40,636 nucleotides of DNA, from positions 1 to 40,636 of the IMG/VR virus record IMGVR_UViG_3300024520_000182; one strand, given 5' to 3'. Positions 12,345-38,746 of the stretch are shown here, in pieces; position 1 is the first letter of the stretch, and the number at the start of each line of letters is the position of its first letter. The notes below the pieces were generated by a model that was given only the letters and a program-made list of their open reading frames with translations, made no database searches and was not told where the DNA came from. Source of the stretch: a virus. The position numbers were made by a program, and so were the translations under genes.

Positions 12345-12346
12345 CT

Positions 12347-16763: not shown

Positions 16764-16808
16764 GTTTCTTTCCCCTATGCTTTGATTTTTTACATTTGAA
16801 TCGCAGCT

Positions 16809-17138: not shown

Positions 17139-17149
17139 TGCATTCTCCA

Positions 17150-17177
17150 ATTATATCATGTATACTTACGGTGTCGG
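17150..17177 (-). promoter_or_regulatory. Promoter-like site before the first FN3 gene
   Basis: On the minus strand TATAAT occupies 17155-17150 with TGA directly before it, a perfect extended -10. CCGACA lies 16 bp upstream (17177-17172, four of six -35 matches). The start of transcription would fall near 17143, only five bases before ATG 17138 and past the ribosome binding site, so a transcript from here would be nearly leaderless. That makes the call uncertain. Confidence 0.4.
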
Positions 17178-22155: not shown

Positions 22156-22158
22156 GAT

Positions 22159-22614: not shown

Positions 22615-22616
22615 GG

Positions 22617-23045
22617 TTATTTCCCCTCGTTAAATCGTGCGAAGCTGCGATGGTCGGAACCATCTGGCCCGAATCCCCGCATCAGTGATCCGCGTGTGAA
22701 ACATAACGCGTCCAACCACCGCACATCCATTGGTACATCATCGCGAGCCGAGGCCTCAATTCTGCCATCGACTCGATTCAAAATCTGTCTACACAATCGG
22801 GTGAGCGAGAAGGGGTGCGCCCTGGCTCGTTCACCAATGAACGCCCAACCCATGTGCCGACCGGTCCATAACTCCATGGTACCGCCTACGGCAACCGGAC
22901 CTTGCTCGTCCACTATCGTTGCGCTGTTCTGTCCTGCAATTACATTCAGCGTGCCATCTATATCGCCCCATTGATCCATGAGGCCAGCTTCCGTCATGAC
23001 GACGCGTACATCTTCGGGGTGAAATTCTACTATTTTAAGAGTCAT
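22617..23045 (-). CDS. gp13-like protein with acetyltransferase-like fold (DUF2833)
   Basis: The 142-residue protein shows the pattern of phage gp13-like proteins: an N-terminal EFHPEDV, a central GPVAVGGTMELWTGRHMGWAF and the helix HPFSLTRLCRQIL, ending with WLDALCFTRG. The strand order resembles the GNAT acetyltransferase fold, though its acetyl-CoA loop is not clearly kept. In T7 the gp13 gene is needed for proper addition of internal core proteins. It starts inside the end of the tail tubular B gene. Function by similarity and gene order. Confidence 0.75.
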   Translation of the reverse strand: MTLKIVEFHPEDVRVVMTEAGLMDQWGDIDGTLNVIAGQNSATIVDEQGPVAVGGTMELWTGRHMGWAFIGERARAHPFSLTRLCRQILNRVDGRIEASARDDVPMDVRWLDALCFTRGSLMRGFGPDGSDHRSFARFNEGK

Positions 23046-25326: not shown

Positions 25327-25327
25327 C

Positions 25328-25912
25328 TTATCGCCTTTCGCTAATCCAAGTGTCCTCTGGGAATTCGATAGCCGTTGCCTCAATGGAGCCAACGCGTTTC
25401 GCTTCTGCTATCGCGGTTTTGTAATCGTCCTTAAGGGACTTTTTCTTGCCACCGCTGCCGGTGACTTCCTCGCATATTTCGAAAGCGACCTTCGTTGCAA
25501 ATGCGTTTTCGAAAAGCGCGTCGTACAAGTTCGCTGACTTGACTTCGTGGATGTACTTGATATATAGTGGCGCCGCATCTTTCGTGACGATGAACAGAGT
25601 ATCCGTGTCGTCGCTCTCAAGGCGCCAGTCTGTACGCTGTCCGGTCTCGTCATCGAATATCAGACGTATGAAGCCGGTCGGCGTTGTGAATCGATTTAGG
25701 TTACCCCAAATAGTTGTTGCTGTGTCTTTCGCCAGGGTGGCGCGACGGGTCGCGAATCCCCAATGGAAACGACGTAGCTCGGCGCGCTTGATCGAATCAT
25801 AAACCGCTTTTACCGAACGGGCGTTCGGATGATTCTGGTCAAAAGACTCGACGCGTTCGGCGCCGAGTTTCTGAAGTGCATAGTTAGCGACCGCGATATC
25901 GGAAGTCGACAT
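25328..25912 (-). CDS. Tail tubular protein A (adaptor, gp11-like)
   Basis: The 194-residue protein opens with IAVANYALQKLGAERV, followed by ARSVKAVYDSIKRAELRRFHWGFA, the two helices that define this adaptor family. The C-terminal half has the usual YIKYIHEVKSANLYDALFEN. It links the portal ring to the nozzle. It begins on the stop of the preceding gene (TAATG). Confidence 0.92.
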   Translation of the reverse strand: MSTSDIAVANYALQKLGAERVESFDQNHPNARSVKAVYDSIKRAELRRFHWGFATRRATLAKDTATTIWGNLNRFTTPTGFIRLIFDDETGQRTDWRLESDDTDTLFIVTKDAAPLYIKYIHEVKSANLYDALFENAFATKVAFEICEEVTGSGGKKKSLKDDYKTAIAEAKRVGSIEATAIEFPEDTWISERR

Positions 25913-26202
25913 TATGTCGCATTCGTGATAATAGCGATTTTGTCGCCGGGTTGAACTGCAAGGTCAACGGTGCCGTCAGCAGGTATCCGCATAGAATCCG
26001 CAGCCGTGGCCGTTGGACTTTTACCCACTTTGTACGAGATAATCCCGTTAGAGTGTACCCGGATAAATTGCGTATTCGCGTTGAAAGCGTCTGACTGTTG
26101 ACTTGTGCCACTGTTGGTGATGGCACCTTGCTCCGCAATCGGGCCACCAAACGGCAGCCCGGCACGGTAATCGGCGTATTCGGTAATGTAGGTTTTCGCC
26201 AT
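25912..26202 (-). CDS. Small structural/decoration protein, 96 aa
   Basis: A beta-rich protein with FNANTQFIRVHSNGIISYKV and DLAVQPGDKIAIIT, a small-barrel pattern often seen in capsid decoration or head-fibre proteins. It follows two other small proteins after the capsid gene and precedes the tail tubular genes, consistent with a virion part. No exact family recognised. Confidence 0.65.
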   Translation of the reverse strand: MAKTYITEYADYRAGLPFGGPIAEQGAITNSGTSQQSDAFNANTQFIRVHSNGIISYKVGKSPTATAADSMRIPADGTVDLAVQPGDKIAIITNAT

Positions 26203-26211
26203 AATTACCCC

Positions 26212-26448
26212 TTACGAGCTAGATGTAATCGGCCAAACCTTCGCCGATTCAAGCTTGGCGAGAATACCCTTGACCGCGACCACGAGTCGCTGTTTACCTT
26301 CGTTCGTCGCACCGTAGATCGCGTCATCAAAGACGAGTTCCACGGTTGCGCTTGCTCCGGTCAGCGTTCCACCAGTTGCAGCACCAGTGAAGTCGCTCGG
26401 CGCGCTTTGCGGTGCTTCGCTTGCCGAAAAAATGTAACGATCTGCCAT
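26212..26448 (-). CDS. Small structural protein, 78 aa
   Basis: The protein begins ADRYIFSASEAPQSAPSDFT and contains ATVELVFDDAIYG and a C-terminal helix LVVAVKGILAKLES. The frame is open for 68 codons upstream, but GGAG eight bases before ATG 26448 and the better composition after it decide the start. Probably a minor virion component. Confidence 0.65.
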   Translation of the reverse strand: MADRYIFSASEAPQSAPSDFTGAATGGTLTGASATVELVFDDAIYGATNEGKQRLVVAVKGILAKLESAKVWPITSSS

Positions 26449-26503
26449 TGTGTTTTCTCCTGAAAAGTGAGCGATAGACCGAAGCCTATCGCTCGTGCCA
26501 GAA

Positions 26504-27001
26504 TTACTCAGGCATGACGTACTTGACTTCCATTCCGACAGCCGTTGCGGCGCCGGTCGAGACGGTGACCACGCTGACAACGATGTCATACTCGACATCA
26601 CCGGTTGCGCTGGCCGTGCCGACTGCCGTGGCGTACGCGGTCTTAAGATCAAGAGCGCGATCGGCGGGAACCGGAACGGTGTTCACGTTGACACCAGCGT
26701 TGGCGGTGAGCGCAACGGCGGTAGCGAACACGTCGTCATCGATAGCGATGCCGTCGTTCGGGCGGAACAGACCGATTTTGACCGAGCCGTTACCCATGGA
26801 AGCGTTGAAAAGGCCAATATGCGTGACGCGCGCTCGTGCCGGAACCCGGACGAAAGCGTTAGTCTGCGCGGCAGTGGCAGGAGTGAGGGTAAGGACGCCA
26901 TACGCGGAACGTTCAGCACCACCCTTTTGAATCTGGGACACCTTGGTAACTGGTACGGTGTCCTGATTCGTAACGACTGTGGCTTGATTTGTGTGAGCCA
27001 T
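26504..27001 (-). CDS. Capsid decoration-like protein, 165 aa
   Basis: The beta-rich, Ala/Val/Thr-rich protein has ARARVTHIGLFNASMGNGSV and KIGLFRPNDG, then GDVEYDIVVSVVTVSTG. Its place just after the major capsid gene and its composition suggest a head decoration or head-fibre protein. It has few charged residues, as such proteins often do. I know of no catalytic motif in it. Confidence 0.7.
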   Translation of the reverse strand: MAHTNQATVVTNQDTVPVTKVSQIQKGGAERSAYGVLTLTPATAAQTNAFVRVPARARVTHIGLFNASMGNGSVKIGLFRPNDGIAIDDDVFATAVALTANAGVNVNTVPVPADRALDLKTAYATAVGTASATGDVEYDIVVSVVTVSTGAATAVGMEVKYVMPE

Positions 27002-27031
27002 GAAAATTTCTCCAATTAGTCAGGAAGTGGG

Positions 27032-27913
27032 TTAGATTTTGTCGTCGCAGATGACTTTGATGACTTTACCCAACTGAGTGCGAGTCGCACCAATGGTGTG
27101 GCAAAGGTACACTTGCCACGCGTAGGACTTGTCGGCCCGCTTGGTAACTTCGGTTTGCGTGTCCGTCCACAAGCCAAGGTGAAGGCCAGACTTCAGCCAT
27201 GCCGGAACTTCACGGTTTCCACCGGTAACATTCAGGCGCTCGCTGAGGATGAAGTTCACGCCCATGAAGCGACGGACTTTGCCCTCTTCGAGTACGGCGG
27301 TCGAGCCGTAATCCTTGTTGTGAATCTGGACTTCCTTGAGCAACGAGTCATGTTCGTAGCTGGAAATCGCGCTGGAAACCGGCTCCATGAGCTCACCCTT
27401 GTTGGCGCGGATCAGGAGTTCGATGACCTTCTGAAGCTTGGCAACGTTCAGGCTGGACGCGGCGCCACCAACGGTGACCGCTACGTCGTAACTCGTATCC
27501 CAGGTTTCGGACGTGGTGCCGTCTTCGCCGGTGAAGTTGGTGCCGAAGACTTTCTCAAGAATCTCGTCGTCCTTCGCACGGTTCATTGCAGCGGAACCGG
27601 CAGCGGCGTAAGGAGAAGTCGGGTCGATGATCATACGAAGTACGTCTTGATGATCGATCAGGCTGGCCCACTCGTAGTCCTGCGGCTGGACCCAGCGCTT
27701 GTCTTGTGACAGGTCAAGCAAAGGGGTGTCCGCGTGGCGGCTGGTCTTCTTCTGGGCAGTGGCTTCGCCGAACTGCTCGACAACGCTGGCTTTGTTACCA
27801 ACGTAGGAATTGGTCGAAACGGCTGGCACAAGACGGCTTTCGGTCTGTTGCATCAGGAGTTCGACATTCGCCTTGTACTCTTGTACATTGGCGACTGTGA
27901 TTGTATCAGGCAT
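27032..27913 (-). CDS. Major capsid protein
   Basis: The 293-residue protein fits the small HK97-fold capsid family of VpV262/SIO-like podoviruses: an N-terminal helix (VQEYKANVELLMQQTESRLV), then WASLIDHQDVLRMIIDP, RAKDDEILEKVFGT, a long central helix LNVAKLQKVIELLIRANKG, RRFMGVNFILSERLN and a closing strand region. There is no N-terminal delta domain; a separate scaffold is encoded upstream. GGAGG lies before its ATG. A dedicated promoter and structured leader precede it, in keeping with the large amount of protein needed. Confidence 0.9.
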   Translation of the reverse strand: MPDTITVANVQEYKANVELLMQQTESRLVPAVSTNSYVGNKASVVEQFGEATAQKKTSRHADTPLLDLSQDKRWVQPQDYEWASLIDHQDVLRMIIDPTSPYAAAGSAAMNRAKDDEILEKVFGTNFTGEDGTTSETWDTSYDVAVTVGGAASSLNVAKLQKVIELLIRANKGELMEPVSSAISSYEHDSLLKEVQIHNKDYGSTAVLEEGKVRRFMGVNFILSERLNVTGGNREVPAWLKSGLHLGLWTDTQTEVTKRADKSYAWQVYLCHTIGATRTQLGKVIKVICDDKI

Positions 27914-28045
27914 GGGAGCCTCCGTAAGTATTTGAAGATAAACAGTTTATCCCTATAGGTTGGGACTGACCGGCTTATCTCTTACAGAGGGCCACTGAAG
28001 TGGTACACACAAGGGGCGAAGGTGCTTGTCCTTTTCGACCACTTA
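27914..28045 (-). promoter_or_regulatory. Structured 5' leader of the capsid message
   Basis: The predicted transcript start near 28045 is at the very foot of a stem, 28044-28038 pairing with 28004-27998 (AAGTGGT/ACCACTT), with a nested stem at 28029-28025 and 28013-28009 (ACAAG/CTTGT). A second hairpin, GATAAA/TTTATC, is at 27951-27937. A stem right at the 5' end is a known way to protect messages from decay. The about 130-base leader has no coding sign. Confidence 0.45.
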
Positions 28046-28051
28046 CACCCT

Positions 28052-28060
28052 AGTATAGCA
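28052..28060 (-). promoter_or_regulatory. Extended -10 promoter for the capsid gene
   Basis: On the minus strand TGC-TATACT spans 28060-28052: a five-of-six -10 with the extended TG. No good -35 is seen, as expected for this class. It lies in the only long gap of the virion block, directly before the capsid leader, and has the same TGCTATACTA core as the site at 34378-34370. Confidence 0.5.
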
Positions 28061-28066
28061 TACGGA

Positions 28067-28285
28067 CTACCGGCGCTTTTCGGCCTCCAGCTTACGGCGC
28101 GCAGCCGCTGTCTTACCCATGGGTGGAGCCACGTTCTCGACCACCCAGGTGTACCACCCTTCGGCGGCTTCCTGGACGGATTCGGGATTCGAGAACGGCG
28201 AACGGACGGCGGCTTCAATACACCGCATCCGTAGTTCCCGATCCGCATCGGAGCGGACCGGTTCACTAATCGGCCGGTTATGCAC
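28067..28285 (-). CDS. Hypothetical protein between scaffold and capsid, 72 aa
   Basis: A small, basic and mainly helical protein (ELRMRCIEAAVRSPF, then a Trp-rich GWYTWVVENVAPP and an Ala/Lys/Arg tail). It starts inside the end of the scaffold gene. Its position suggests a helper of capsid assembly; no family recognised. Confidence 0.6.
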   Translation of the reverse strand: MHNRPISEPVRSDADRELRMRCIEAAVRSPFSNPESVQEAAEGWYTWVVENVAPPMGKTAAARRKLEAEKRR

Positions 28286-29228
28286 GGATCAGACTTTCCG
28301 TTGAGCCTTGCTCGGGGTGAGCCTTGTTGATCAATGCACGACGCTTGGCGACGGCTGCTTGGTGACCCGGATGCGTGCGGTCTGTCAGCGCTGCCGTGAA
28401 GTTCTTGTCAAGCTTCAGGGCCTCAAGTTCGGCGGTGGCTTCGGACGGTGTAAGTTCACCCTTGAATCCGTTGGACGTATCGCCGCTGACGAAGTTGTCT
28501 TCGGTCATCTTGCCGCCCAGGTCAGCGAATAACTTCATGGTCTTGGCATAACCCATGGTCGCCTCGATAGCATTAACCGCGTCGACGGGAAAGCCAAGTT
28601 GCTTGGCCGCGGTACTCGCGCGGTTCATCATCTTGTCATGGCCATCGCGCCACTCGTCCTTCAGGGTCTGCTTGTCAACTACGACTTGTGCTTCGTAGTC
28701 CTTGGCCGTGGCCGCCTGCGCCTCGTTGAAGTAATCATTATTCGCCGCGAACAGTGCAGCCGCTGTGTCTGCTGATATGCCGAGTTCGTGGAACTTATTC
28801 CGCGCCCATTCCTGGTACTTCGGGTCAAGTTGCTGACCTTCGGGTGCTGTCAGTTCGTAACCTTCGGCAGTCTCCGGCGCACCGAGTTTGGTCCAAAATG
28901 CTCGCTGGCCTTCCGGATCGTCTGCGCGCGGCAGTTCGATCACGCTGTCAGCCGGTTTGCCGTGTAGTTTCTCCAGGTGTTGGTACGAAGCGACGGCTCT
29001 TAACGGGTCCTCGTTCCATCCCTTGTTCGTAATGAACGCCGCAGTTTCCGTATCAGCGCCACTGAACCACGTATCAGCGTGTCCGCTAACATCGCCGTCC
29101 ACACTACCAGTACCACCGTTAGTATCAGTGCCAGCAGCACCAGTATCAGTACCAGCCGCACCGCTACTTGCATCACCGCCTGTACCATCGCCGCCCCCTT
29201 CCATTAAGAAATGTTTCCAACTAAGCAT
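28278..29228 (-). CDS. Capsid scaffold protein
   Basis: The 316-residue protein has a Gly/Thr/Asp-rich, repetitive first 45 residues (GAAGTDTGAAGTDTNGG), then mostly charged helices with KGWNEDPLRAVASYQHLEKL, LGAPETAEGYEL and AAALFAANNDYFNEAQAATA, typical of phage scaffolds, and a Lys/Ala-rich helical end that may contact the capsid protein. GGAGG stands before ATG 29228. It precedes the capsid gene as in T7 (gp9 before gp10). Confidence 0.85.
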   Translation of the reverse strand: MLSWKHFLMEGGGDGTGGDASSGAAGTDTGAAGTDTNGGTGSVDGDVSGHADTWFSGADTETAAFITNKGWNEDPLRAVASYQHLEKLHGKPADSVIELPRADDPEGQRAFWTKLGAPETAEGYELTAPEGQQLDPKYQEWARNKFHELGISADTAAALFAANNDYFNEAQAATAKDYEAQVVVDKQTLKDEWRDGHDKMMNRASTAAKQLGFPVDAVNAIEATMGYAKTMKLFADLGGKMTEDNFVSGDTSNGFKGELTPSEATAELEALKLDKNFTAALTDRTHPGHQAAVAKRRALINKAHPEQGSTESLIRA

Positions 29229-30237
29229 TGTCTTCCTCCGTTCCTGTTTCGTAGTTTAGTAATTCATCCATCATCGCGAGCATTTCCGCCGACTTCAATT
29301 CCTCGACGCATTTGTTATCTTCGTAGGCGCACTCGCGGAAGTCCTGAGTAAACACTAGCACCCAATGCGACTGGCACCCGGCGCACGCCAGTTCCTTCGG
29401 CCATACGTGGCGGACTTTCCAGTTGTACACGTTGTGCCGGGTGATGCCGCGGTCGTCCGGGTCCACGGATGTGATACCGTAAACGATCGGACAATCGGTC
29501 GTACCCGCAAGGTGCAGCATTCCGCCGTCCACGCCGACGATAGCTTCAGCGTTTCCAATGATGTCACGCGCTTCCATGAGAGTCGTTTTGTCTCGCATGT
29601 CTACGCACAAATCCTGTATCTGTTGCGGCATGCGTTCGAAGGTGTCCCGGACTTGAAGCGCTATGGTGTCGTGCGAAGCCTTGACGTGTGTCGTAGACTT
29701 GCCGACGACTACGACTTCGTATCCTCGCGCCCGAATCCCGACAATGACTTCCTGCATGATGCGCGGGTGGAAAATCTTGTTATCCGACGTGGCGCCGGAC
29801 GATATGACAACGTACTGTTTCGGCAGGCCGTGCATTGGTTTGACCGGCGACCAATGCGGGTAGTTCATGTCGGCCGTGGTGCGCGGGATCGTATCCAGTT
29901 GCACAACGAAGCCGAAGGTCACCAAGTCCATTTTGTTCCTGGTTACGGTGTCCTTTAGACCACAGTTCACCACGGCCGGGCCTGCCTCGGAGCGTACGTG
30001 TGTCTTCATATCGAAGGTGTGGAGTGCCTTTATCTGGATTCCCGGACCGCCGACAAGGTGCTTGACAAGGTCCATCTGGTGTTCTGGTACCCACAAGGTG
30101 AAGCCAAGGTCAAGCGAATTGATCTTGCGCGCATAGATGATCGCGGGGAGGCTGGTAATTAGATCGCCCAGCGCTGCATGCGTCATCAGAAAGTGTACGT
30201 GGTCCTCAGTACGAACCGTTGTGCCATCGCGGTACAT
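29221..30237 (-). CDS. GT9-family (heptosyltransferase-like) glycosyltransferase
   Basis: The 338-residue protein has the two-Rossmann plan of GT9 enzymes: HAALGDLITSLPAIIYARK at the start replaces the usual GDxxxxTP, then KQYVVISSGATSDNKIFHP, GYEVVVVGKST, and NAEAIVGVDGGMLHLAGTTD, the sugar-nucleotide-binding signature. A Cys-containing tail (CAGC and later Cys) is common in the family. These enzymes add heptose to lipopolysaccharide core. Start 30237 is chosen because it shares its A with the preceding stop (TAATG). Its place between portal and scaffold, next to a methyltransferase, is unusual: it may glycosylate virion protein or alter host lipopolysaccharide. Confidence 0.8.
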   Translation of the reverse strand: MYRDGTTVRTEDHVHFLMTHAALGDLITSLPAIIYARKINSLDLGFTLWVPEHQMDLVKHLVGGPGIQIKALHTFDMKTHVRSEAGPAVVNCGLKDTVTRNKMDLVTFGFVVQLDTIPRTTADMNYPHWSPVKPMHGLPKQYVVISSGATSDNKIFHPRIMQEVIVGIRARGYEVVVVGKSTTHVKASHDTIALQVRDTFERMPQQIQDLCVDMRDKTTLMEARDIIGNAEAIVGVDGGMLHLAGTTDCPIVYGITSVDPDDRGITRHNVYNWKVRHVWPKELACAGCQSHWVLVFTQDFRECAYEDNKCVEELKSAEMLAMMDELLNYETGTEEDNA

Positions 30238-30509
30238 TAGCCATCCCCTTCTGCAAAGAGTTGCCACAGTTCTTGATCATTCAGCCGGATGTGCTGCTGA
30301 ATACGGAGCCAGACTTCCCGGCGCCCCACCAGTTGATTGCGCACGGCTTCATCGGCATGGAACGTGGACGCGTTGGCCCGGCAGAATCGCGCCAAGTCGG
30401 CAAGCACCATCCTGGGAGGATACCCGTCGAACGTGCGGACGTAGTTCATGCGCCGCGTCGCGAGGTATGACTTGGCCAGTTTGATGGATGTGTTGAGGTC
30501 TACGCTCAC
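30237..30509 (-). CDS. Bbp19-like structural protein, 90 aa
   Basis: The pattern RTFDGYPPRMVLADLARFC followed by GRREVWLRIQQHIRL is that of the Bbp19 family, small proteins coded between portal and scaffold/capsid genes in many podoviruses. Its role is not well known; probably a minor head component. Coupled to both neighbours. Confidence 0.7.
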   Translation of the reverse strand: MSVDLNTSIKLAKSYLATRRMNYVRTFDGYPPRMVLADLARFCRANASTFHADEAVRNQLVGRREVWLRIQQHIRLNDQELWQLFAEGDG

Positions 30510-31273
30510 GCCGGGTCGCCCTTGTAATCCTCAATCTTGTGGACCGGTGACTTCTTTACCGGCTTTTCCTTACGGGCGAACGGTACCGGCTCACCCATGT
30601 CTAGGAAGGGCTTGACCGCCTTGACGAGAAAGCGCCACTCGATAACGACATTATTCTCGCGCATTTCCAGATCGCGCCATTCGCCATTCGTACGCTGTTC
30701 CTCGGTGATACGCTCGTCGAGGACACAATTCAAGTTACCTGCCATATCGAAATCGATACGATTGTATCTCCAGAAGGGTGTGAGTCGTCCGCCGACTGTT
30801 TCAATCATAGCGCGAAAGTTCGCCTGACAAAACATCGCGATTGTGTCCGGTGTCACTGGCATGCGGTGCGTCGGGTCGTTGAGGAAGACATTGTGGCGCG
30901 GATGCGGGATCGCAATCGAACAGACCGCGTTCGGCTTGAGGACCCGATACAGTTCCTTCATGAAGTGGAAGAATTCTTCCGTCGTCAGGTGCTCCAGGAT
31001 ATGATGGGCCAGGGTTTCATCCACCGAGTCAGTGGGGAACGGCCACGTATCGACACCGAGATTCAGGACCATGTCCGGATTTTCGGACGGCTCCATATCG
31101 ATGTTGGTCCAGCCGGGTAGCTTCTGGTGGCCACAACCTAAATTAAGCTTGCTGTGTTGATTTAGCTTGATCGTGCCACTTGACTTCATCATATTGCCAA
31201 TTAGTTTGCTTGGCTGCGACAGTGTCTGCGCGTGTTCCGCGCTCGGGGTGTTGCCGGTTTCAGGGGTGCTCAT
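30506..31273 (-). CDS. SAM-dependent methyltransferase (class I)
   Basis: The 255-residue protein has motif I LNLGCGHQKLPGW, an acidic end of strand 2 (TNIDMEPS), a motif around DETLAHHILEHL and motif LYRVLKPNAVCSIAIP, as in Methyltransf_11-type small-molecule or sugar methyltransferases. The 40 residues before motif I are low-complexity. No DNA-recognition part is seen, so it is not a typical restriction-modification enzyme. Together with the nearby GT9 enzyme it could modify a glycan. The Lys-rich C-terminus is odd and might bind a partner. It starts as ATGA on the preceding stop. Confidence 0.78.
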   Translation of the reverse strand: MSTPETGNTPSAEHAQTLSQPSKLIGNMMKSSGTIKLNQHSKLNLGCGHQKLPGWTNIDMEPSENPDMVLNLGVDTWPFPTDSVDETLAHHILEHLTTEEFFHFMKELYRVLKPNAVCSIAIPHPRHNVFLNDPTHRMPVTPDTIAMFCQANFRAMIETVGGRLTPFWRYNRIDFDMAGNLNCVLDERITEEQRTNGEWRDLEMRENNVVIEWRFLVKAVKPFLDMGEPVPFARKEKPVKKSPVHKIEDYKGDPA

Positions 31274-31770
31274 AATCTCAGTCTGTGCCCTTCTAGTTTG
31301 AAAGTGTGGTCGAACAGTTTCGAAAAGTCATCATGTAATGTAACGCTCACCCGATAGCCGGGCATCATCAAAACGAAAGGCCGAAACCGAAAATGGGCTA
31401 TTACTGTTTTCTCTTTCCCTTCCCAAATCCCGGCCCGTAATGCGGGCGTATGTTTCGCGAAGTCTCCGTTCTGTAATATCGGTTGTCCGGGTGTCACGTC
31501 CAGCACTGGTACACCCTTCGGGTCCATAAATAAAATCGAGTATCCGTTGGTCAAGGAGTTTTTCAATCCGCCGTATCGCTTCCTCTCGGGTTTGTCTTTT
31601 CCGGCTATCGTCACAGTCAACGATGATATCAGCGTTTCGTGATCGGGCGCCGAGTCGTAAAAGAATTCGGTTGGTGAGGCGTAGTCGCCAAGCGCGTCCG
31701 TTTCGCCGGATGCGGTGGACAAGTGAACGGATACGCGATCTTCGGGTCTCGGGTTGTCGAAGTATGGCAA
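31270..31770 (-). CDS. Probable virion protein, 166 aa, TTG start
   Basis: A beta-rich protein with HETLISSLTVTIAGKDKPER, KNSLTNGYSILFMDPKGVPV and FRFRPFVLMMPGYRVSV, right after the portal gene. The pattern fits a head or head-completion protein, though I do not recognise the family. An in-frame stop lies just upstream, so translation must begin at TTG 31770 or further inside; no ribosome binding site is clear, and coupling to the portal gene may help. A second frame across this region is Arg-rich and spurious. Confidence 0.65.
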   Translation of the reverse strand: MPYFDNPRPEDRVSVHLSTASGETDALGDYASPTEFFYDSAPDHETLISSLTVTIAGKDKPERKRYGGLKNSLTNGYSILFMDPKGVPVLDVTPGQPILQNGDFAKHTPALRAGIWEGKEKTVIAHFRFRPFVLMMPGYRVSVTLHDDFSKLFDHTFKLEGHRLRL

Positions 31771-31793
31771 AGGTCATGTGGGTGCGTTGTTTT

Positions 31794-33440
31794 TTATTCT
31801 GGTGATTCTTGGCCGGGTGCGGCTCCACTTTTCGCCATACCTGCCACCGCAGGTAGTGCGTCGATTGCTTGTTGCTGTGCCTCTTTTTCGGCGCGTCCTG
31901 CGCGAATCTCTTCGACTGCCTCTTCGGCACGGGTCCACTCGACCGGCGCACCGTTGATCTGCTGAATTGCTGGTACGGCGACATCAAAGTCAAACCAGTC
32001 CAGGGGCGACGCGTCACCCGTGGCCTGTACGTGTTCTAGTGTCATGGACAGCGAACGCATAAAGCCGGACGCCTTCTCGGCCTCGCGCATGCGGGACATT
32101 GGCGAATTGTACTCAATGGTATACAACATCGCTTCCGGGTCCTGCAAGATCGGCGGCAGTTCAGGTACAAGACCCTGTTGCGCGAGTAAGTCGACTTCGC
32201 GCTCGATCAAGCGTCCAAGGAATTCAGCCTGAAGGCGGCCAGCCGTTGGTGCGACGAGCATGCCCTTTTCGCGAGCGCGCTCCAGGACTTCCGTCGCGGT
32301 CATTTGCGGTGAGTCAAGTAGAATCTGAAAGAGGGTAATCAAGAACGCATCGTTAATGGTCTTGGCTTCCATTTCCATCAGTTCGAATCCGGCAGCCAAG
32401 TTCCCGGTCGGTAACGTGTCGACCATGCGCTTGCCGTCCTTGTTCAGTCCGCCCGCGTTCAGTGCGCCGGACTTCATACTAAAGCCACCCAGGTTGCCAT
32501 CGTCGTGTGAAAGCAGTACCGGTGAAAGCGTACGCTGACCCTGGATCAACGTGTCCTTTTTCTCTTGGTTGATAACCTTGATCGACGGCAATACCATCTG
32601 CGTCGGACCACGGCCGTAAATCTCGTTCGGTGCCTGCGTGTAACGCGCGATCGGGTAAGGGAACGTCCGGAAGCCGCCTTCTTGCAGCTTCACTTGCTCC
32701 GGTACGAACACATAGCAGGACTTGAAGCGCATGCCGACGTGGTCCATGCGATTAGGGTCATAGTCCCGCCGCGGCTCCACAATGTGCATTATCTCTAACT
32801 CTTCCTCCATCTGGGAAGGGTTGGCATTCTTGGAGCGCACGGACTCCGGCACGTTCGCGAATTTCTCGACCATCTGGTTCACAGACATCCGGAAAAAACG
32901 GTACGCGGTATCGATCACCCCTGCATGGTTGGGAACAAAGTAAATCTCCCCTAAGTGGATATTCTTGTATCGCAGACCTGGGGAATCATCCGGCTGGTCA
33001 ACGAACAGAATACCGTTACCATAGGCACCGATACTCGCGTACGACTGCTGAGAGTTTCCGACGAAGTTGGCGACCGGGCGATACCGGTACCGAAACAGCG
33101 CTTCGTTAAACTCTTCGTAAAATTTGCGAGCCTGCCGGTTGTTCTTGAGCATTTTATCGGCCGGTCGCAAGTGTGCCCAGAATGAATTTTGCGGCGTAAT
33201 GAGAGATTCGATTACTGCCGAAAATCGCTGGTTAGCGATAATCGCGGTTGAATCGTACGCGTCTTGGGTCTTCTTTTGCCCTTCGGACCCGTTCAGGTTG
33301 TGCGTCTGACGGGAGAAGAAAGAACCGGAATGCTCCGGGATCACCCGTCGTGCGGATTCTTCCCATTGCGTTTCCCAGTTGCCACGCTTGGAGCGCAGTT
33401 GCGCACCACGCTGGATGTAATGTCGTACGTCGTCTGACAT
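31794..33440 (-). CDS. Portal (head-to-tail connector) protein, gp8-like
   Basis: The 548-residue protein follows the T7-like portal family: NWETQWEESARRVIPEHSGS, RFSAVIESLITPQNSFWAHL, YASIGAYGNGILFVDQP, MVLPSIKVINQEKKDTLIQG, and QMTATEVLERAREKGMLVAP. These correspond to the wing, clip and stem segments. It forms the twelve-fold channel through which DNA is packaged and ejected. It starts on the preceding stop (TAATG-like overlap at 33440). Confidence 0.93.
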   Translation of the reverse strand: MSDDVRHYIQRGAQLRSKRGNWETQWEESARRVIPEHSGSFFSRQTHNLNGSEGQKKTQDAYDSTAIIANQRFSAVIESLITPQNSFWAHLRPADKMLKNNRQARKFYEEFNEALFRYRYRPVANFVGNSQQSYASIGAYGNGILFVDQPDDSPGLRYKNIHLGEIYFVPNHAGVIDTAYRFFRMSVNQMVEKFANVPESVRSKNANPSQMEEELEIMHIVEPRRDYDPNRMDHVGMRFKSCYVFVPEQVKLQEGGFRTFPYPIARYTQAPNEIYGRGPTQMVLPSIKVINQEKKDTLIQGQRTLSPVLLSHDDGNLGGFSMKSGALNAGGLNKDGKRMVDTLPTGNLAAGFELMEMEAKTINDAFLITLFQILLDSPQMTATEVLERAREKGMLVAPTAGRLQAEFLGRLIEREVDLLAQQGLVPELPPILQDPEAMLYTIEYNSPMSRMREAEKASGFMRSLSMTLEHVQATGDASPLDWFDFDVAVPAIQQINGAPVEWTRAEEAVEEIRAGRAEKEAQQQAIDALPAVAGMAKSGAAPGQESPE

Positions 33441-33766
33441 TAGCCTAGTAATTCTTGTGATGCGAATGCAGTACCGCGAGCGCGACGCTTACGTCCGGCG
33501 CGGTTCGCACTGTCCACTGTGCCGCCACCCTCTTCGCCTGTCATTACTGGGCCACTGTTGGTGATCAGCGATTCGGATGCACGCGTCGTCGGGTTGGTGA
33601 TGGGCGGTGGTGCTGCTGCGGATACCGGTGCTATGGCTGCGGCTGCGGCTCCACCGCCGTTATATGAAGTACCGCCGCGCGGCACGTACCTTGATTTTGT
33701 TTGGGCACCGCCACCCATCCATCCGGAATTTGATGTGTTGTTATTACTTCCTGAGCCGTAAGGCAT
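33440..33766 (-). CDS. Low-complexity virion-associated protein (gp7.3-like?), 108 aa
   Basis: Gly/Asn/Ser-rich and Ala/Pro-rich low-complexity sequence ends in a basic motif, NRAGRKRRARGTAFASQELL. T7 gp7.3, coded just before the portal, has a similar disordered body and basic end and helps tail assembly. The likeness is in design and position, not in detailed sequence. ACGGGGA lies before the ATG. Confidence 0.6.
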   Translation of the reverse strand: MPYGSGSNNNTSNSGWMGGGAQTKSRYVPRGGTSYNGGGAAAAAIAPVSAAAPPPITNPTTRASESLITNSGPVMTGEEGGGTVDSANRAGRKRRARGTAFASQELLG

Positions 33767-33767
33767 G

Positions 33768-33962
33768 CTATTCCCCGTTCGATTTTGCTGCGCGCATATC
33801 CATCAAGGCACGCATGCCAGGATTCGTCTGCACAAGGTTGGCCTCGGGGGCGACCGTAGATTGATTGATCGCCGTGGCGACCTTCGCTTGTCGTTCTTTA
33901 CGAACAAGGTCCGGGTCTCGCTTGTGACGATTCCCGGACCTTGGCTTTACTTCATCACGCAT
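33768..33962 (-). CDS. Hypothetical basic protein, 64 aa
   Basis: A strongly charged small protein (KPRSGNRHKRDPDLVRKERQ) with a helical C-terminus (GMRALMDMRAAKS). It fits between the FN3 gene and the low-complexity protein with gaps of only nine and one bases. No clear ribosome binding site and no family; it may bind DNA or another virion part. Confidence 0.5.
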   Translation of the reverse strand: MRDEVKPRSGNRHKRDPDLVRKERQAKVATAINQSTVAPEANLVQTNPGMRALMDMRAAKSNGE

Positions 33963-33971
33963 GTGGTGCGC

Positions 33972-34313
33972 TTAGTTCAATACCGTGGTAACGGTAATGG
34001 CCGAAAGAGAAGCCGGAACATTGATATCGACGCCAACTGACCAAGGACCTTGAACGCCATCCTTGATAGCGCGAACCCGGTGACAGTAATCGGCGTCATC
34101 CTGAACGGTGTCGACGAAACTAAGTACGTCCGCGGCCGGGCTGGCGATCGTGGTCCACGAATTGACGTTCGCCAGGGCACAAGTATTCGCGTTGCGCTGT
34201 ACTTGGTAACTGTCTTCGGAACCGGCGTCGGTCCACGAGACGGTAATGGTTTCATCAAAGGCGAAGGCGGAAAGCGAAAACAGAAAGACGGCAACAGCGG
34301 CAAGGAATCTCAT
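33972..34313 (-). CDS. Exported FN3-like domain protein, paralogue of 16809-17138
   Basis: The 113-residue product starts with a signal peptide (MRFLAAVAVFLFSLSAFA, cleavage after AFA). The mature part is one fibronectin III-like domain: VSWTDAGSEDSYQVQ, a middle turn, and DYCHRVRAIKDGVQGPW. Cys pair (NTCAL and DYCHR) as in the paralogue, and the same W-x-D-x-x-x-E-D-x-Y-x-V start. The frame is open 42 codons upstream, but the signal peptide and GGAG before ATG 34313 decide the start; the promoter at 34378-34370 leads straight to it. An exported moron expressed from its own promoter is the most likely reading. Confidence 0.75.
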   Translation of the reverse strand: MRFLAAVAVFLFSLSAFAFDETITVSWTDAGSEDSYQVQRNANTCALANVNSWTTIASPAADVLSFVDTVQDDADYCHRVRAIKDGVQGPWSVGVDINVPASLSAITVTTVLN

Positions 34314-34369
34314 GGGCGTAATCTCCGGTGATTGATGTGAGGAAAGATATCGAACTACCTTTAACACAT

Positions 34370-34378
34370 AGTATAGCA
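34370..34378 (-). promoter_or_regulatory. Extended -10 promoter before the second FN3 gene
   Basis: TGC-TATACT occupies 34378-34370 on the minus strand, with the same TGCTATACTA core as the capsid promoter. It begins three bases after the end of the large terminase gene; the start of transcription should be near 34363, giving a leader of about 50 bases to ATG 34313. Confidence 0.5.
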
Positions 34379-34380
34379 CA

Positions 34381-35964
34381 TCAGATCGTGAATTCATAGT
34401 CGCCGGTACCATGGGCGATGCGCTGCGGCCCTGGCCCATTATCCTGCGGGCGCCGTGGAGGGTTATCGACTTCGTGCGTACAAGCCAAGGAATCCATCTT
34501 ATCGGGCGAATCGACGCCGCGCTTTTTCAATTCTTCCTTGGATTCGAGTATCTTCTTGGTGTCTTCCTTGCCGCCTGACCACTTCCATTGCCGGTTGGTC
34601 GCCTCATATGATAGGCTACCCTTCTCGCCGTCGTCCATGGGGATCATGGCGCCGGGCAGCCAGTCCCGGACCTTGGCCCAGAGTCGGGTACCGTTGGTCT
34701 TGAATTCGTCGGTCTGCCCCTGGATCATGCCGAACCGGACTTCGTGCAGGATGCCGGGAAAGGGTAACTTACGTTTCAGGATGTCAATCACACCGGTACC
34801 CATCCCGAAGTCGATGCAGATGGCGTCCGGCTTGTATGCGGCGTCCAGGTCAAGCACTGCCTGCGCGATCTGGACGTTATCCTTGCCTTGCCACTCCCCG
34901 TGCGTCTTCGGGCCGCAGCAATCGCGCGCATTCCGGCCTTGCCTGAATTGCCATGTGGTCCTGCCGCGTGGAGCCGGGTCCACCCCGAGTATTAGCTTAT
35001 CGGTGCCAGGGTTGAGGGTGAGCATGTTGTGCATGGCCGTTTCCACGTTCTCCGTGGGAATGAACTGGCCTTCCTCGGTCTTCGGCGGCAATCCGTCAAT
35101 CTCGACCCGGACAAAGTCCGAATCCTCGCCGTACCTAAGTATTTGTTTGCGTATTACATTCTGGTCAATGCCTTCCATTCCCCGGGTGGACAGCGTCTCG
35201 CTATACCAGCCGGTGGCGTGGTTCTTGTCGTAGAATATGTCATGGAACCGGCCCTGACGATTCCGCATCTGCGACATGCCGAACCAGAAGCGATACGGGT
35301 TAATTTCCGTGAAGAATCCTTCAGTTACGTTCCATATGCCGTCTGGGATACCGGCTGCCTCGTCGAACATCACGCACATACCATAAGGGTTGTGCGCTCC
35401 GGCGAAGGCGTTCTCGTTGTCGGCATTCCAGGTCTGGGCGGCGCAGTACCAGTACTTCGGATCGATCCCGAGTCCACCGGCTTCGGGCGGCTGGTTCACG
35501 AGTTTCTGAAGCCAAGCGGCTGGCGTGATCCGCATCGCGTCCACTTCGAACCAATGGGCGTTTACCGAGGCGCCGAACCAGACCGCGAATTCTGGGAAGG
35601 TCTTGGCGCGCATCTGGGCCTCGGTGTTGGCTGACACGATGATGGGTGCGCCTATCCGGACGGACATGCACCAATGCGCTACCATCGCAAGCAGTGCGGT
35701 CTTGCCGGGTCCGCGGCCGGAGGACTTGCAGGACTGATACACGTCGAGCGGCAAGTCCAGGTCGTAGGCGGCGCGGTTCTCGCGGACGTGGTCCCTGATG
35801 CGTTCTAGCTCGCGCATTTGCCAGGGGCGGGGACCTTTGAATTTCTCGAATAACGTACCCTTGCGGCCCCACGGAAAACAGTACATGACGTGCTTGACCG
35901 GGTCGTCGCGGAACGAAAGAATCTTTGTTAGTATCTCTTTTTCTTGGTCGATCGTTCCACGCAT
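34381..35964 (-). CDS. Terminase large subunit
   Basis: The 527-residue packaging motor has the ATPase Walker A GRGPGKT (83-89), Walker B MCVMFDEA (D201, E202), and the nuclease domain with LILGVDPAPRG (D329), AICIDFGMGTG (D385) and SPDKMDSLACTHE (D488, D491) as metal ligands. It cuts and pumps DNA into the prohead through the portal. An Asp/Gln/Pro-rich end of about 30 residues probably docks on the portal. GAGGAAAA precedes its ATG. Confidence 0.93.
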   Translation of the reverse strand: MRGTIDQEKEILTKILSFRDDPVKHVMYCFPWGRKGTLFEKFKGPRPWQMRELERIRDHVRENRAAYDLDLPLDVYQSCKSSGRGPGKTALLAMVAHWCMSVRIGAPIIVSANTEAQMRAKTFPEFAVWFGASVNAHWFEVDAMRITPAAWLQKLVNQPPEAGGLGIDPKYWYCAAQTWNADNENAFAGAHNPYGMCVMFDEAAGIPDGIWNVTEGFFTEINPYRFWFGMSQMRNRQGRFHDIFYDKNHATGWYSETLSTRGMEGIDQNVIRKQILRYGEDSDFVRVEIDGLPPKTEEGQFIPTENVETAMHNMLTLNPGTDKLILGVDPAPRGRTTWQFRQGRNARDCCGPKTHGEWQGKDNVQIAQAVLDLDAAYKPDAICIDFGMGTGVIDILKRKLPFPGILHEVRFGMIQGQTDEFKTNGTRLWAKVRDWLPGAMIPMDDGEKGSLSYEATNRQWKWSGGKEDTKKILESKEELKKRGVDSPDKMDSLACTHEVDNPPRRPQDNGPGPQRIAHGTGDYEFTI

Positions 35965-36033
35965 TTTTTTCCTCAGTGAATCATATACTTACCCGGCCGG
36001 CAGTCGTTCTCTCCCTGGGAACGATCGTACTCA

Positions 36034-36042
36034 ATTGTATCA
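36034..36042 (-). promoter_or_regulatory. Extended -10 promoter before the large terminase
   Basis: On the minus strand TGA-TACAAT lies at 36042-36034, in a 101-base gap that otherwise holds only a hairpin (36004-36009 with 36019-36024, TCGTTC/GAACGA) in the leader of the terminase gene. No -35 matches. Same class as the sites at 38132-38124 and 28060-28052. Confidence 0.45.
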
Positions 36043-36065
36043 CATACTCTTGACACGGTTCGCAT

Positions 36066-36275
36066 CTAACCCTTTTCGTCAACCGCTGCGCGATACCGTC
36101 GATACCACGCCAACAGCTTCAGCGGATCGAACATGTACACCTTGTGCCCGGCCGCGTTCACGCACATCAGTTCACCGCGCGGGAAGCCTCCCGGTTTCTT
36201 GTCCATGACAAGATTGACGCTGACCAAGTTCGCCTCGGCTATCAAGGCCTTCTGCTGTATGTCCTGCGGTCTCAT
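36066..36275 (-). CDS. Hypothetical protein, 69 aa
   Basis: A small mixed alpha/beta protein (ANLVSVNLVMDKKPGGFPRG, then HKVYMFDPLKLLAWYRRYR). It overlaps the preceding stop as ATGA. No family is recognised; the aromatic, basic C-terminus could contact nucleic acid. Confidence 0.6.
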   Translation of the reverse strand: MRPQDIQQKALIAEANLVSVNLVMDKKPGGFPRGELMCVNAAGHKVYMFDPLKLLAWYRRYRAAVDEKG

Positions 36276-36673
36276 TCAGCACCACACGAGCAACACGGCT
36301 CGCCGTGCCACCACCAGCACTTACAGTGGAGGCCGTCTTCCGTCTTCGCGCAGGAGCCGAAGTCCGTCCGGCGTGCTTCCTGCATTACCGTATCCCGGTT
36401 CTGGCTGCACTCGTCGAACACGAGCAGCGGGCCGCGATCCTCGGCGGCCGGGTAGTCACTAGGCTGCGTAAGGTACGCTTGCCGCAGCAGTAAGTTGCGA
36501 TTCTCGGTGTACTGCCGGATGTGCGCCTCGCTGATATCGGCGCGCGGCTTGCGGGTGAAGATGGCCCGGTCCGCCAAGTACGCGAGATACAGCACAAGAG
36601 CGATGCCGCCACAGACTACAACCGTACCGCCGAGCATCAGTAATATATCAACGATTGTCCAAACAATTTCCAT
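36272..36673 (-). CDS. Membrane-anchored protein with Cys-rich tail, 133 aa
   Basis: An N-terminal membrane segment (LMLGGTVVVCGGIALVLYLA) is followed by a basic turn (FTRKPR), a helical charged middle, and a tail in which six Cys and two His cluster in the last 29 residues (FGSCAKT, then HCKCWWWHGEPCCSCG). The tail could bind zinc or another metal, or be a substrate for disulfide formation. The positive turn after the segment places the tail in the cytoplasm. GGAGG lies before the ATG. It lies between small and large terminase genes; function unknown. Confidence 0.65.
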   Translation of the reverse strand: MEIVWTIVDILLMLGGTVVVCGGIALVLYLAYLADRAIFTRKPRADISEAHIRQYTENRNLLLRQAYLTQPSDYPAAEDRGPLLVFDECSQNRDTVMQEARRTDFGSCAKTEDGLHCKCWWWHGEPCCSCGAE

Positions 36674-36703
36674 GTCACCCTCCGTGATCCGTAAGCTACC
36701 ATT

Positions 36704-37030
36704 CTACCCCAAGTCGTACATCCAAGCGTCGGATGACTTCCACTGTTGCGCATGAGCGCGTATCGCCTCGCGCCGTCGCTCCAAGACTTCGGTCGCGTTA
36801 AGCATGGGATCCGGTTCCGGCTCCACCTTCATACTGAACTGTTCAACGACGGCCATTATCTGCGGGTGCGTCGGCTGGTCGTCGAAGCGCTTCTCGTACA
36901 CCACCTTTCCGCCACCCTCCGTATATGTCAGCCACCAGCAATTCGCGGCCGGGTCCCGGTGCGTCGTAAGGAAGTCGCCGCGCTGGCCGATCCCGAGCGG
37001 AATGATACCGTCTCGCTGTTTGCCCATCAT
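36704..37030 (-). CDS. Hypothetical protein, 108 aa
   Basis: The first half is beta-rich (RGDFLTTHRDPAANCWWLTY, EGGGKVVYEKRFDD), the second half helical (NATEVLERRREAIRAHAQQW). Two adjacent ATG codons can start it; the first overlaps the preceding stop. No family recognised. Confidence 0.6.
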   Translation of the reverse strand: MMGKQRDGIIPLGIGQRGDFLTTHRDPAANCWWLTYTEGGGKVVYEKRFDDQPTHPQIMAVVEQFSMKVEPEPDPMLNATEVLERRREAIRAHAQQWKSSDAWMYDLG

Positions 37031-37335
37031 CTTGCGTATCCGTCCTTTCTGTCGTTGGTTCCAAACATCCGCATCAGTTCGTCCGCGATCAGTTTCGCGA
37101 TGCCGTTCGCGTGATCCTGTCGCAGCTTGAATATCCGGCGACGTTGCTCGACCGCGTTTCCCTTACCACCCCACATGCCGGGTGAGGCCAGCATTAGGGA
37201 GAACGGTTCGTCGCTCCACTCAAGCGGCTCCCGTAATTCGCGCATCAGGCTTTGGCTGATCGGAAGCGCCACGGTTTCGGAGCGCTCGCCGTACTGGCCG
37301 ATGTGTAACGTCAGTTCGATCGCCGGATCCCTCAT
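37027..37335 (-). CDS. Hypothetical protein, 102 aa
   Basis: A mixed protein starting MRDPAIELTLHIGQYGERSE, with a helical second half (VEQRRRIFKLRQDHANGIAK). Its start overlaps the stop of the short membrane protein upstream as ATGA. No family recognised; the chain of overlaps supports translation. Confidence 0.6.
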   Translation of the reverse strand: MRDPAIELTLHIGQYGERSETVALPISQSLMRELREPLEWSDEPFSLMLASPGMWGGKGNAVEQRRRIFKLRQDHANGIAKLIADELMRMFGTNDRKDGYAR

Positions 37336-37457
37336 GTCGGCAGGCCGCGTACGCCACGGATGAAGGTCACCAATATCCAGCCAAAGGTTACGATGGCCGT
37401 TATGAGCACCACGTTTTTCACGATAGCATCGATTGCGCAGGTCGTCACTGGGGTCAC
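37332..37457 (-). CDS. Short membrane protein, 41 aa, GTG start
   Basis: A 41-residue frame ends as ATGA on the next gene and is stopped just upstream by TAG, so it must start at GTG 37457 or a later GTG. It holds one membrane segment (NVVLITAIVTFGWILVTFI) and a basic tail. No strong ribosome binding site. The coupling and membrane segment support it; function unknown. Confidence 0.4.
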   Translation of the reverse strand: MTPVTTCAIDAIVKNVVLITAIVTFGWILVTFIRGVRGLPT

Positions 37458-37621
37458 CTATTTCGGGTTAAGATCATCATTTTATCTCAATTTTTATACC
37501 GGGTCAAGGCCGACCATCCCCTGATGGGCGATCGGCGACGAATCTTGGGGTACCCCGTCCCCCACTCCCCCCTTAAGAATCAATGACTTAGCAAACTGCG
37601 AAACGTTCGTTACGCCCCACG
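37458..37621 (-). other. Non-coding space after the small terminase, with GC palindrome and G-tracts
   Basis: No gene is seen here. It holds a short hairpin (37514-37518 with 37523-37527), the perfect palindrome GGGGTACCCC (37547-37556) and, on the minus strand, three G-tracts of four to six (37556-37553, 37563-37559, 37572-37567). An AT-rich stretch lies at 37470-37500. It could hold a packaging signal or a transcript structure. Confidence 0.35.
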
Positions 37622-38089
37622 CTACATCAATGCCGCTAGCTCTGGCACGGCTGTCGCCACGCCTTCAATCGTCAATGCCTCGTGTGCTTCGAGGCGTGCA
37701 TTAGCGTCGGCAATGATCTTGTTAAGGTCTAGCGTCTTGACATTGAAGTCTGCACGCACGCGCTGGCCATACTTGTCTGGGTCTTTCTTCTCGATCAGCC
37801 ACATTAGCCCATTGATCTTATTGCGCGCGTGTCTAGGGTCAAGGCCCGCATTAGAAATGGTGCGCCGCAATTCATCCATATCCGCCTGCGCGCTTTCCTT
37901 CATAGCATCATGGAAGGCATCCCGCGTTTGTTGCGGACTTTCACGCCTAAAAGCGTAAACCGCTGACCGGCTATATGGTTTCGACTCGCACACATCGCCA
38001 ATAGTCTGCCCATCTGCGATTGCGTCCAATATATCCAGCCAGTCGGATTCGATCGCTGCGAACGTTTCGCGGCTTATCCTTGTTGCCAT
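37622..38089 (-). CDS. Terminase small subunit
   Basis: The 155-residue protein has an N-terminal helix-turn-helix: FAAIESDWLDILDAIADGQT, then VCESKPYSRSAVYAFRRESP, the pattern of phage small terminases, followed by a helical region (KESAQADMDELRRTISNAGL) with HARNKINGLMWLIEKKDPDK, which in this family forms the oligomer. It recognises the packaging site and feeds DNA to the large subunit. An ATG at 38125 is possible, but it would lie within the -10 of the promoter at 38132-38124; AAGG before ATG 38089 favours the latter. Confidence 0.82.
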   Translation of the reverse strand: MATRISRETFAAIESDWLDILDAIADGQTIGDVCESKPYSRSAVYAFRRESPQQTRDAFHDAMKESAQADMDELRRTISNAGLDPRHARNKINGLMWLIEKKDPDKYGQRVRADFNVKTLDLNKIIADANARLEAHEALTIEGVATAVPELAALM

Positions 38090-38123
38090 TACATTACCTT
38101 CCGTGATCCTGTTTCGATAACCC

Positions 38124-38132
38124 ATTGTAGCA
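38124..38132 (-). promoter_or_regulatory. Extended -10 promoter starting the late block
   Basis: TGC-TACAAT on the minus strand at 38132-38124 has five of six -10 matches and the extended TG. No -35 is visible. Transcription would start near 38117, 28 bases before ATG 38089. The first CGTACG palindrome (38138-38143) lies directly upstream, where a bound protein could act as activator or repressor. Confidence 0.5.
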
Positions 38133-38137
38133 TCTGC

Positions 38138-38406
38138 CGTACGACGTAACCCTTACAGGGGTTACGCGTCGAATCGTACGTTTTCCGTACGCTGTTGATA
38201 GGTTAGCGCCTGCTTACCTGCAAACTGAAGCCTAGAGCCGATCCACGTTTTACAGCGTACGGCAAACGTACGGCAAACGTACGAAAAGCGTACGAATCCC
38301 ACGATACGAAAATCGTACGGTCAGCGTACGCTAACCTGCAAAGCTAGCATAGGCCTCAAACAGGCGTACGATTTTTGAAGCCGTTTTTCAGACCCTAAAT
38401 CGTACG
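38138..38406 (+). repeat. Array of eleven CGTACG palindromes (iteron-like)
   Basis: CGTACG occurs at 38138, 38175, 38186, 38256, 38267, 38278, 38289, 38314, 38325, 38365 and 38401. Five of the ten steps are exactly 11 bp, about one helical turn, so the sites face the same side of the DNA. In the core the unit is CGTACGGCAAA or CGTACGAAAAG, so A-runs alternate with the palindromes and may add bending. A worn copy lies near 38302. A twelfth CGTACG is in the first codons of the next gene (38567). A helix-phased array between divergent promoters suggests cooperative binding of a phage protein: an origin initiator or a master regulator. Confidence 0.9.
38145..38166. repeat. Inverted repeat beside the iteron array
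   Basis: CGTAACCC (38145-38152) and GGGTTACG (38159-38166) are perfect complements separated by six bases. It could be a protein-binding dyad or, in RNA, a hairpin; there is no T run, so not a terminator. It sits between the first and second CGTACG. Confidence 0.6.
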
Positions 38407-38463
38407 CTTAATAAATAGGCAGTGACAAATAGACCACCATCAAATCAACGACTTGCCAAATAC

Positions 38464-38472
38464 TTATCCACA
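38464..38472 (+). other. Perfect DnaA box
   Basis: TTATCCACA matches the DnaA box consensus exactly. It lies 58 bases after the last CGTACG, beyond an AT-rich stretch (38395-38463). The combination of iterons, AT-rich DNA and DnaA box is the classic make-up of a plasmid or phage origin. A single box can occur by chance. Confidence 0.5.
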
Positions 38473-38487
38473 ATGCGCCAAAAAGGC

Positions 38488-38515
38488 TTGACGGCATGAC
38501 CCCAGTGCCTGTAAA
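38488..38515 (+). promoter_or_regulatory. Candidate sigma-70 promoter of the right-hand early genes
   Basis: TTGACG (38488-38493, five of six) is followed after 16 bp by TGTAAA (38510-38515, four of six). Transcription would start near 38522, about 40 bases before ATG 38561. The match is fair, and the position between the array and the first plus-strand gene is right. Confidence 0.4.
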
Positions 38516-38560
38516 GTTCGCTTTATCGGATACGCAAACACACACGAAGGGGAACACAAC

Positions 38561-38746
38561 ATGAGTCGTACGTACAAAGAAGCCGCAGCAAACATCAAAG
38601 CCTGCAATTGCTCGTCCGGATGGATTCAGCGCGCGCTTGTTGATCTTGAGGACCGCGATTGTGTCGACGCCTATTATGATGCGCTCGCACTGGCTGCACT
38701 CGCCAAGCGCCGCATGGACGAAGCACTGAACAAGGGGATATCATGA
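38561..38746 (+). CDS. Hypothetical early protein, 61 aa
   Basis: A small helical protein with a Cys pair (IKACNCSSGW) and ALALAALAKRRMDEALN at the end. GAAGGGGA stands before the ATG. It contains a twelfth CGTACG in its first codons. Coupled to the next gene by ATGA. Unknown function; small first genes of phages often act on host proteins. Confidence 0.6.
   Translation: MSRTYKEAAANIKACNCSSGWIQRALVDLEDRDCVDAYYDALALAALAKRRMDEALNKGIS

Follow-up and report, generated by a model that had tools for sequence, protein, structure and literature searches.

Two putatively exported FN3-like proteins from separate, old subfamilies in the late region of a podovirus-type genome

We analysed a stretch of viral DNA of 40,636 nucleotides (IMG/VR record IMGVR_UViG_3300024520_000182, hereafter the window), which carries two genes, A and B, each encoding a signal-peptide pattern followed by a single fibronectin III-like (FN3-like) domain. 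As judged from their sequences, A and B are members of two old subfamilies residing in one genome, and they look accessory, not structural. Our explanation as a whole, a tentative one that falls a little short of an even chance, is that both would be accessory, Sec-exported FN3 binders of the periplasm, drawn from two old subfamilies, that are not part of the virion and that block a site in the host envelope.

The window displays a podovirus gene order on its minus strand, namely terminase, portal, scaffold, major capsid, tubular proteins, internal virion proteins, fibre, endolysin and holin. It had been described as T7-like, which is correct for gene order only, as by inspection no ORF of T7 RNA polymerase size is present beyond those otherwise assigned. 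In its portal protein, the window shares 49% identity with the uncultured podovirus ct8d5349 (MW202898), and 35-39% with BcepC6B and Stenotrophomonas phage BUCT708. Both ct8d5349 and the BcepC6B-type podoviruses resemble the window in gene order, but a profile search found an A or B gene in neither. The two genes and their surroundings are as follows.

34381 to 35964, minus strand: terminase large subunit (phrog_2), upstream neighbour of A
34322 to 34326, minus strand: Shine-Dalgarno sequence GGAGA of A (from the sequence)
33972 to 34313, minus strand: gene A, 113 aa, putative signal peptide and single FN3-like domain, Cys45/Cys77, between the terminase large subunit and portal genes
34260 to 34313, minus strand: putative signal peptide of A, MRFLAAVAVFLFSLSAFA (from the sequence, a heuristic test and a matching segment in the homologue P0003; predicted cleavage site)
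31794 to 33440, minus strand: portal / head-tail adaptor, downstream of A, past two small ORFs
17166 to 20675, minus strand: internal virion protein, 1169 aa (phrog_6651), upstream neighbour of B
17144 to 17148, minus strand: Shine-Dalgarno sequence GGAGA of B (from the sequence)
16809 to 17138, minus strand: gene B, 109 aa, putative signal peptide and single FN3-like domain, same Cys pair
17085 to 17138, minus strand: putative signal peptide of B, MRKTLFAALLLVAFNAHA (from the sequence and a heuristic test; predicted cleavage site)
15210 to 16763, minus strand: tail fibre-type protein (phrog_1640), downstream neighbour of B

Both ORFs are present where the original prediction had placed them (ATG at 34313 and stop at 33972 for A; ATG at 17138 and stop at 16809 for B), each with GGAGA ahead of its ATG, although the end that had been given for A, 34378, is the far edge of its -10 box and not of the gene. 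B occupies the slot between the genes for the 1169-aa internal virion protein and the tail fibre. Base composition gives no sign of a foreign origin for either gene (0.54 in A and B versus 0.56 in the block).

Two homologues were found outside the window, by alignment scans and one DNA pattern run against IMG/VR viral contigs: P0003 (L086:108-446), which is 45% identical to A, and P0004 (L089:2330-2650), which is 40% identical to B. The family thus has four members, two of which are on short contigs. Single-sequence scans of viral contigs with A, B and the terminase returned no relative, and the five other loci returned by the pattern scan (L088, L091-L094) encode unrelated proteins, one of which (L093) is, by eye, large and multi-domain, with FN3-like repeats. 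Two scans of genome contigs gave nothing close: one was without any match, and the other yielded one match in an Elusimicrobia record, limited to query residues 25-92.

These homologues bear directly on the origin of A and B, which had been presented as a duplicated pair. The two are homologous (33% identity, E 9e-11), but each resembles a gene of a different phage more than it resembles the other: by BLAST, A scores 95.5 bits with the L086 copy and B 70.1 bits with the L089 copy, versus 41.2 bits for A with B. In a maximum-likelihood tree (200 bootstraps), A likewise pairs with L086 and B with L089, and this split receives support 100 on both full and mature sequences. A recent duplication within this genome is thus rejected, as the two copies are not each other's closest relatives. 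However, four tips do not place the root of the tree, so that A and B may stem from an ancient duplication that predates the divergence of these phages.

The four proteins, which are 28-45% identical, all retain the W-x-D-x-x-x-E-D-x-Y-x-V motif and both cysteines that had been predicted as common to A and B. In a model of A, the loop that follows the second strand contains Cys45 and a later strand contains Cys77, and we infer that the invariant pair may form a disulfide in A and B. The FN3-like nature of the domain, also part of the original prediction, is supported for A by profile and by model. A profile of the four members matches two solved chains over residues 20-104, 3mpc, the Clostridium thermocellum 'Fn3-like protein' (E 3.3e-7), and 5g56, the arabinoxylanase CtXyl5A (E 4e-6), both of which lack the Cys pair of the family in the printed alignments. 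A was modelled with AlphaFold2 at pLDDT 80.6; the model has eight strands, and Foldseek aligns it with FN3 chains at probability 1.00 (best E 3.9e-4), its viral matches being chiefly virion or tail proteins. In contrast, B yields a weak model (pLDDT 68.4), and no member reaches the cut-off of the Pfam fn3 family, 25 bits (A scores 15.4; B, P0003 and P0004 have no match). We thus consider A and B to be FN3-like domain proteins, with the modelled fold of A as the better-founded case. No PADLOC defence model matches any of the four members. Three NCBIfam models of Shiga toxin B subunits (E 0.011-0.088, one member each) were discarded as chance-level matches, and the other NCBIfam matches of the family are likewise weak and at chance level.

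A and B both start with an n-region containing K/R, followed by a hydrophobic core and an AxA motif, and the predicted export by signal peptide gains from the presence of the same pattern in both outside homologues. The rule used to flag it is a crude, home-made heuristic, checked on the known members, all four of which it flags. In a survey of relatives that covered loci L006-L085 (plus strand only) and L098-L103, with L001-L005 and L086-L097 outside it, the same rule flagged nine ORFs, two of which lie in the 80 portal loci, whose plus strands hold 2,817 open stretches of 60 aa or longer. As far as such patterns can tell, export of A and B would be of Sec type. In the alignment, none of the four members has a Cys ending the signal segment, that is, a lipobox, so A and B would be soluble.

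A search of 50,697 phage records returned nothing comparable (best E 5e-3, a baseplate protein). Against 13,603 ORFs taken from 87 records, the profile recovered only the members in the window, in a partial second copy of it and in L086, all three being among those records. No member was found in the portal loci of relatives (the best 80 of 484 by portal similarity), but many of these loci are short, and the phages concerned may still carry one. Finally, none of 20 whole relative records gave a match, while both window copies were recovered as a control. Looking for the pair in other phages, as had been proposed, led to single homologues in L086 and L089.

Genomic locations of the four members differ, as they occupy four slots. 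A is located between terminase and portal, and B between internal virion protein and fibre. The L086 copy is one gene ahead of the scaffold gene, from which it is separated by a 92-aa ORF, with capsid and tube genes afterwards. By eye, this ORF resembles the Bbp19-like gene of the window (30237-30509), which in relatives comes soon after the portal gene; the L086 copy is thus probably located between portal and that gene, unlike A. P0004 is outside any recognised head or tail block: its gene is followed by a lipoprotein gene, then by ribonucleotide reductase and M15 endolysin genes, and it faces a 1357-aa ORF without PHROG match on the opposite strand. A's slot is variable, as it holds other small ORFs in the 62 records with both terminase and portal and as neither of the two small ORFs next to A is matched in relatives. 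The corresponding slot of L072 contains an unrelated lipoprotein-like ORF of 122 aa (3116-3484) without PHROG match. As for B's slot, the distance from internal virion protein to fibre ranges from about 0.3 to 5.3 kb in four relatives (L098, L100, L102, and L103). A and B probably entered variable slots of the late region in separate events. Moron-type insertions provide a yardstick here: the presence of other ORFs in A's slot in relatives and the lack of the family in the 80 portal loci are features of this type. No terminator is listed on their strand directly downstream of either gene; the box described below is plausible as a promoter before A and ill-placed before B.

The original prediction had given each gene a promoter of its own. 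Three extended -10 boxes are found on the minus strand.

34370 to 34378, minus strand: extended -10 box TGCTATACT before A (consensus match; predicted start at about 34363)
17150 to 17158, minus strand: extended -10 box TGATATAAT before B (consensus match; predicted start at about 17143)
28052 to 28060, minus strand: third box, TGCTATACT, identical to that of A, before the major capsid gene

The window has four occurrences of the motif TGNTATAMT, versus 0.85 +/- 0.91 expected (60 first-order simulations), an excess that is inflated because the motif was picked after seeing the sites. All three minus-strand sites are intergenic, while intergenic DNA amounts, by our gene list, to 602 of the 24,019 bases of the block (364 of these 602 bases make up the scaffold-capsid gap, which contains a small ORF ending just ahead of the box). 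A's box would give a 50-nt leader and is a fair promoter candidate on its sequence, although it is not among the -35-bearing sites listed by a sigma-70 scan. B's box would give a leader of 5 nt only, starting past the GGAGA at 17148-17144. An RNA begun beyond the Shine-Dalgarno sequence cannot yield a B mRNA with its own ribosome site, and the box, if used, would be a better fit to the downstream fibre and lysis genes than to B. Moreover, by eye, no such box is seen in the upstream sequence shown for the L086 and L089 homologues. What holds of the prediction is thus a rare box before A and B; a conserved private promoter is not supported, given the position of B's box and the lack of one in the upstream sequence shown for L086 and L089. 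A generic sigma-70 scan detected no excess in 12000-31900 (9 sites versus 9.6 expected); in 31000-38700 sites are in excess (10 versus 4.8), A's box not being one of them. Among relatives, a box is present in the scaffold-capsid gap of three (L012, L018, and L019) out of 61, for 15 boxes per 797,868 bases overall, a recurrence that lends weak support to the capsid site and to neither of the others.

How might such proteins act? Under the explanation that we prefer, A and B would be exported single FN3 domains of about 90 residues, perhaps stabilised by one disulfide. They would be made late, along with the head and tail genes (a timing suggested by their position in the late block, which is itself no proof), exported to the periplasm and folded there. 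As plain binding modules, they would attach to some presumed component of the host envelope and there block or alter a receptor or a site of DNA entry; superinfecting phages would thereby be excluded and progeny kept off the dying cell. Taken alone, this exclusion or receptor-shielding step is conceivable but doubtful. In broader terms, the originally suggested role in the envelope, be it exclusion, masking of a receptor or adhesion, would be plausible. That one genome carries both subfamilies suggests two targets. The fullest version, a soluble periplasmic FN3 family with two co-occurring subfamilies that act on two envelope targets as receptor or entry blockers in uncultured podoviruses, an Ig-like counterpart of Llp, is unlikely. 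If true, stand-alone exported FN3 proteins would mean that a binding fold has shifted from the virion to the envelope of the infected cell, and proteins of the A/B type would be small, testable tools for studying how phages shut the cell to rivals.

The closest candidate work-alikes are superinfection-exclusion lipoproteins, namely T5 Llp with the Cor family, and Rtp45. According to PMC9586334, T5 Llp is periplasmic, contains one disulfide and, from inside, binds FhuA, whose outer loops it closes; in PMC12685063, Rtp45 acts on LptDE from the periplasmic side, thereby stopping the phage receptor-binding protein from binding. As we presume for A and B, these are small exported periplasmic phage proteins, and Llp has a single internal disulfide, as A and B may have. 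However, Llp and Rtp45 are lipoproteins in the same sources (PMC9586334, PMC12685063) and smaller, whereas A and B have no lipobox and carry an FN3 domain. Thus, A and B do not belong with them, and the idea of a similar way of working remains.

The main rival explanation, that A and B help lysis or release by binding peptidoglycan or the outer membrane through their FN3 domains and so aid holin and endolysin, seems quite unlikely to us. It draws on the surroundings of P0004, where a 73-aa membrane ORF runs over the start of the gene, the lipoprotein gene comes next and the M15 endolysin gene is 2.8 kb downstream, as well as on the location of B about 4 kb upstream of the window endolysin and holin genes, and on L098 and L102, where a different, exported-looking protein of 99 aa is encoded ahead of the holin gene. 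However, the L089 membrane ORF does not match holin families, A is about 20 kb away from the lysis genes, the L086 copy is near the scaffold gene, and the proteins have no transmembrane segment or lipobox, hence no spanin anatomy.

FN3 and Ig-like domains of phages are usually found on virion proteins. Fraser et al. in 2006 reportedly described them in tailed phages as fused to structural proteins, without signal peptide. These domains share the fold class of A and B and are likewise encoded among virion genes, but all four members of our family are stand-alone, exported-looking ORFs. A virion-associated decoration, which would attach to the particle or fibre after export or lysis and aid adhesion, is therefore a second rival, and it gains from the predominance of virion and tail proteins among the viral Foldseek matches and from the fibre gene adjoining B. 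We hold it to be improbable, as a stand-alone domain with a signal-peptide pattern is involved, the L089 gene is off the head and tail block, and absence from the best 80 of 484 portal loci is unlike a fixed structural part. The signal pattern and the Cys pair, kept in all four sequences, are also in line with the original view that A and B are unlikely to be virion parts. An Ig domain has been described inside a podovirus tail protein (PMC4802629). Among open-licence full-text articles, we found none on an exported stand-alone FN3 phage protein, which agrees with the suggestion that such proteins look undescribed, subscription journals and preprints being outside this scope.

A third possibility is another secreted binder of glycans or proteins, for example a periplasmic protease inhibitor or a chaperone of exported phage proteins. 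FN3 neighbours do include modules of secreted glycanases (such as 5g56), and three more window ORFs (at 2478, 6281, and 8850) are flagged as exported or membrane-anchored by our rule, but the FN3 genes have no genetic linkage to them and no known inhibitor family was matched, so that such a role is also rather improbable. Lastly, an uncleaved inner-membrane anchor holding the domain in the periplasm to stop DNA entry is very unlikely: several known exclusion proteins are indeed inner-membrane proteins and the hydrophobic segments are short, but short h-regions and AxA-type ends suit cleavage, and the segment ends directly ahead of the domain in all four members.

Other genes of this lineage deserve mention. 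Between portal and scaffold, the window carries a GT9 heptosyltransferase-type gene (29221-30267, minus strand) and a methyltransferase gene (30506-31273, minus strand), which are matched in 14 and 8, respectively, of 85 records (window and copy excluded), mostly nearest relatives. They hint, by association only, that this lineage alters the host surface. An ORF of 98 aa on the plus strand (2478-2774) starts with a twin-arginine-like segment, MDRRGFLKAIVAVPAVVYA, its Pfam TAT_signal match being below threshold (13.9 bits versus 22.7). Also on the plus strand, an ORF of 166 aa (6281-6781) combines a signal-peptide pattern with an HEMIH motif (HExxH) and a sub-threshold SprT-like match, and has a lipoprotein-like relative in L100 (1913-2482). 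The exported-looking 99-aa protein encoded before the holin gene in L098 (13283-13582, no PHROG match) and L102 (9583-9897) has two cysteines and, by eye, is not FN3-like. Finally, the lysis region of the window includes a 155-aa ORF (13206-13673, minus strand) that matches the PHROG peptidase HslV family (E 9.5e-18).
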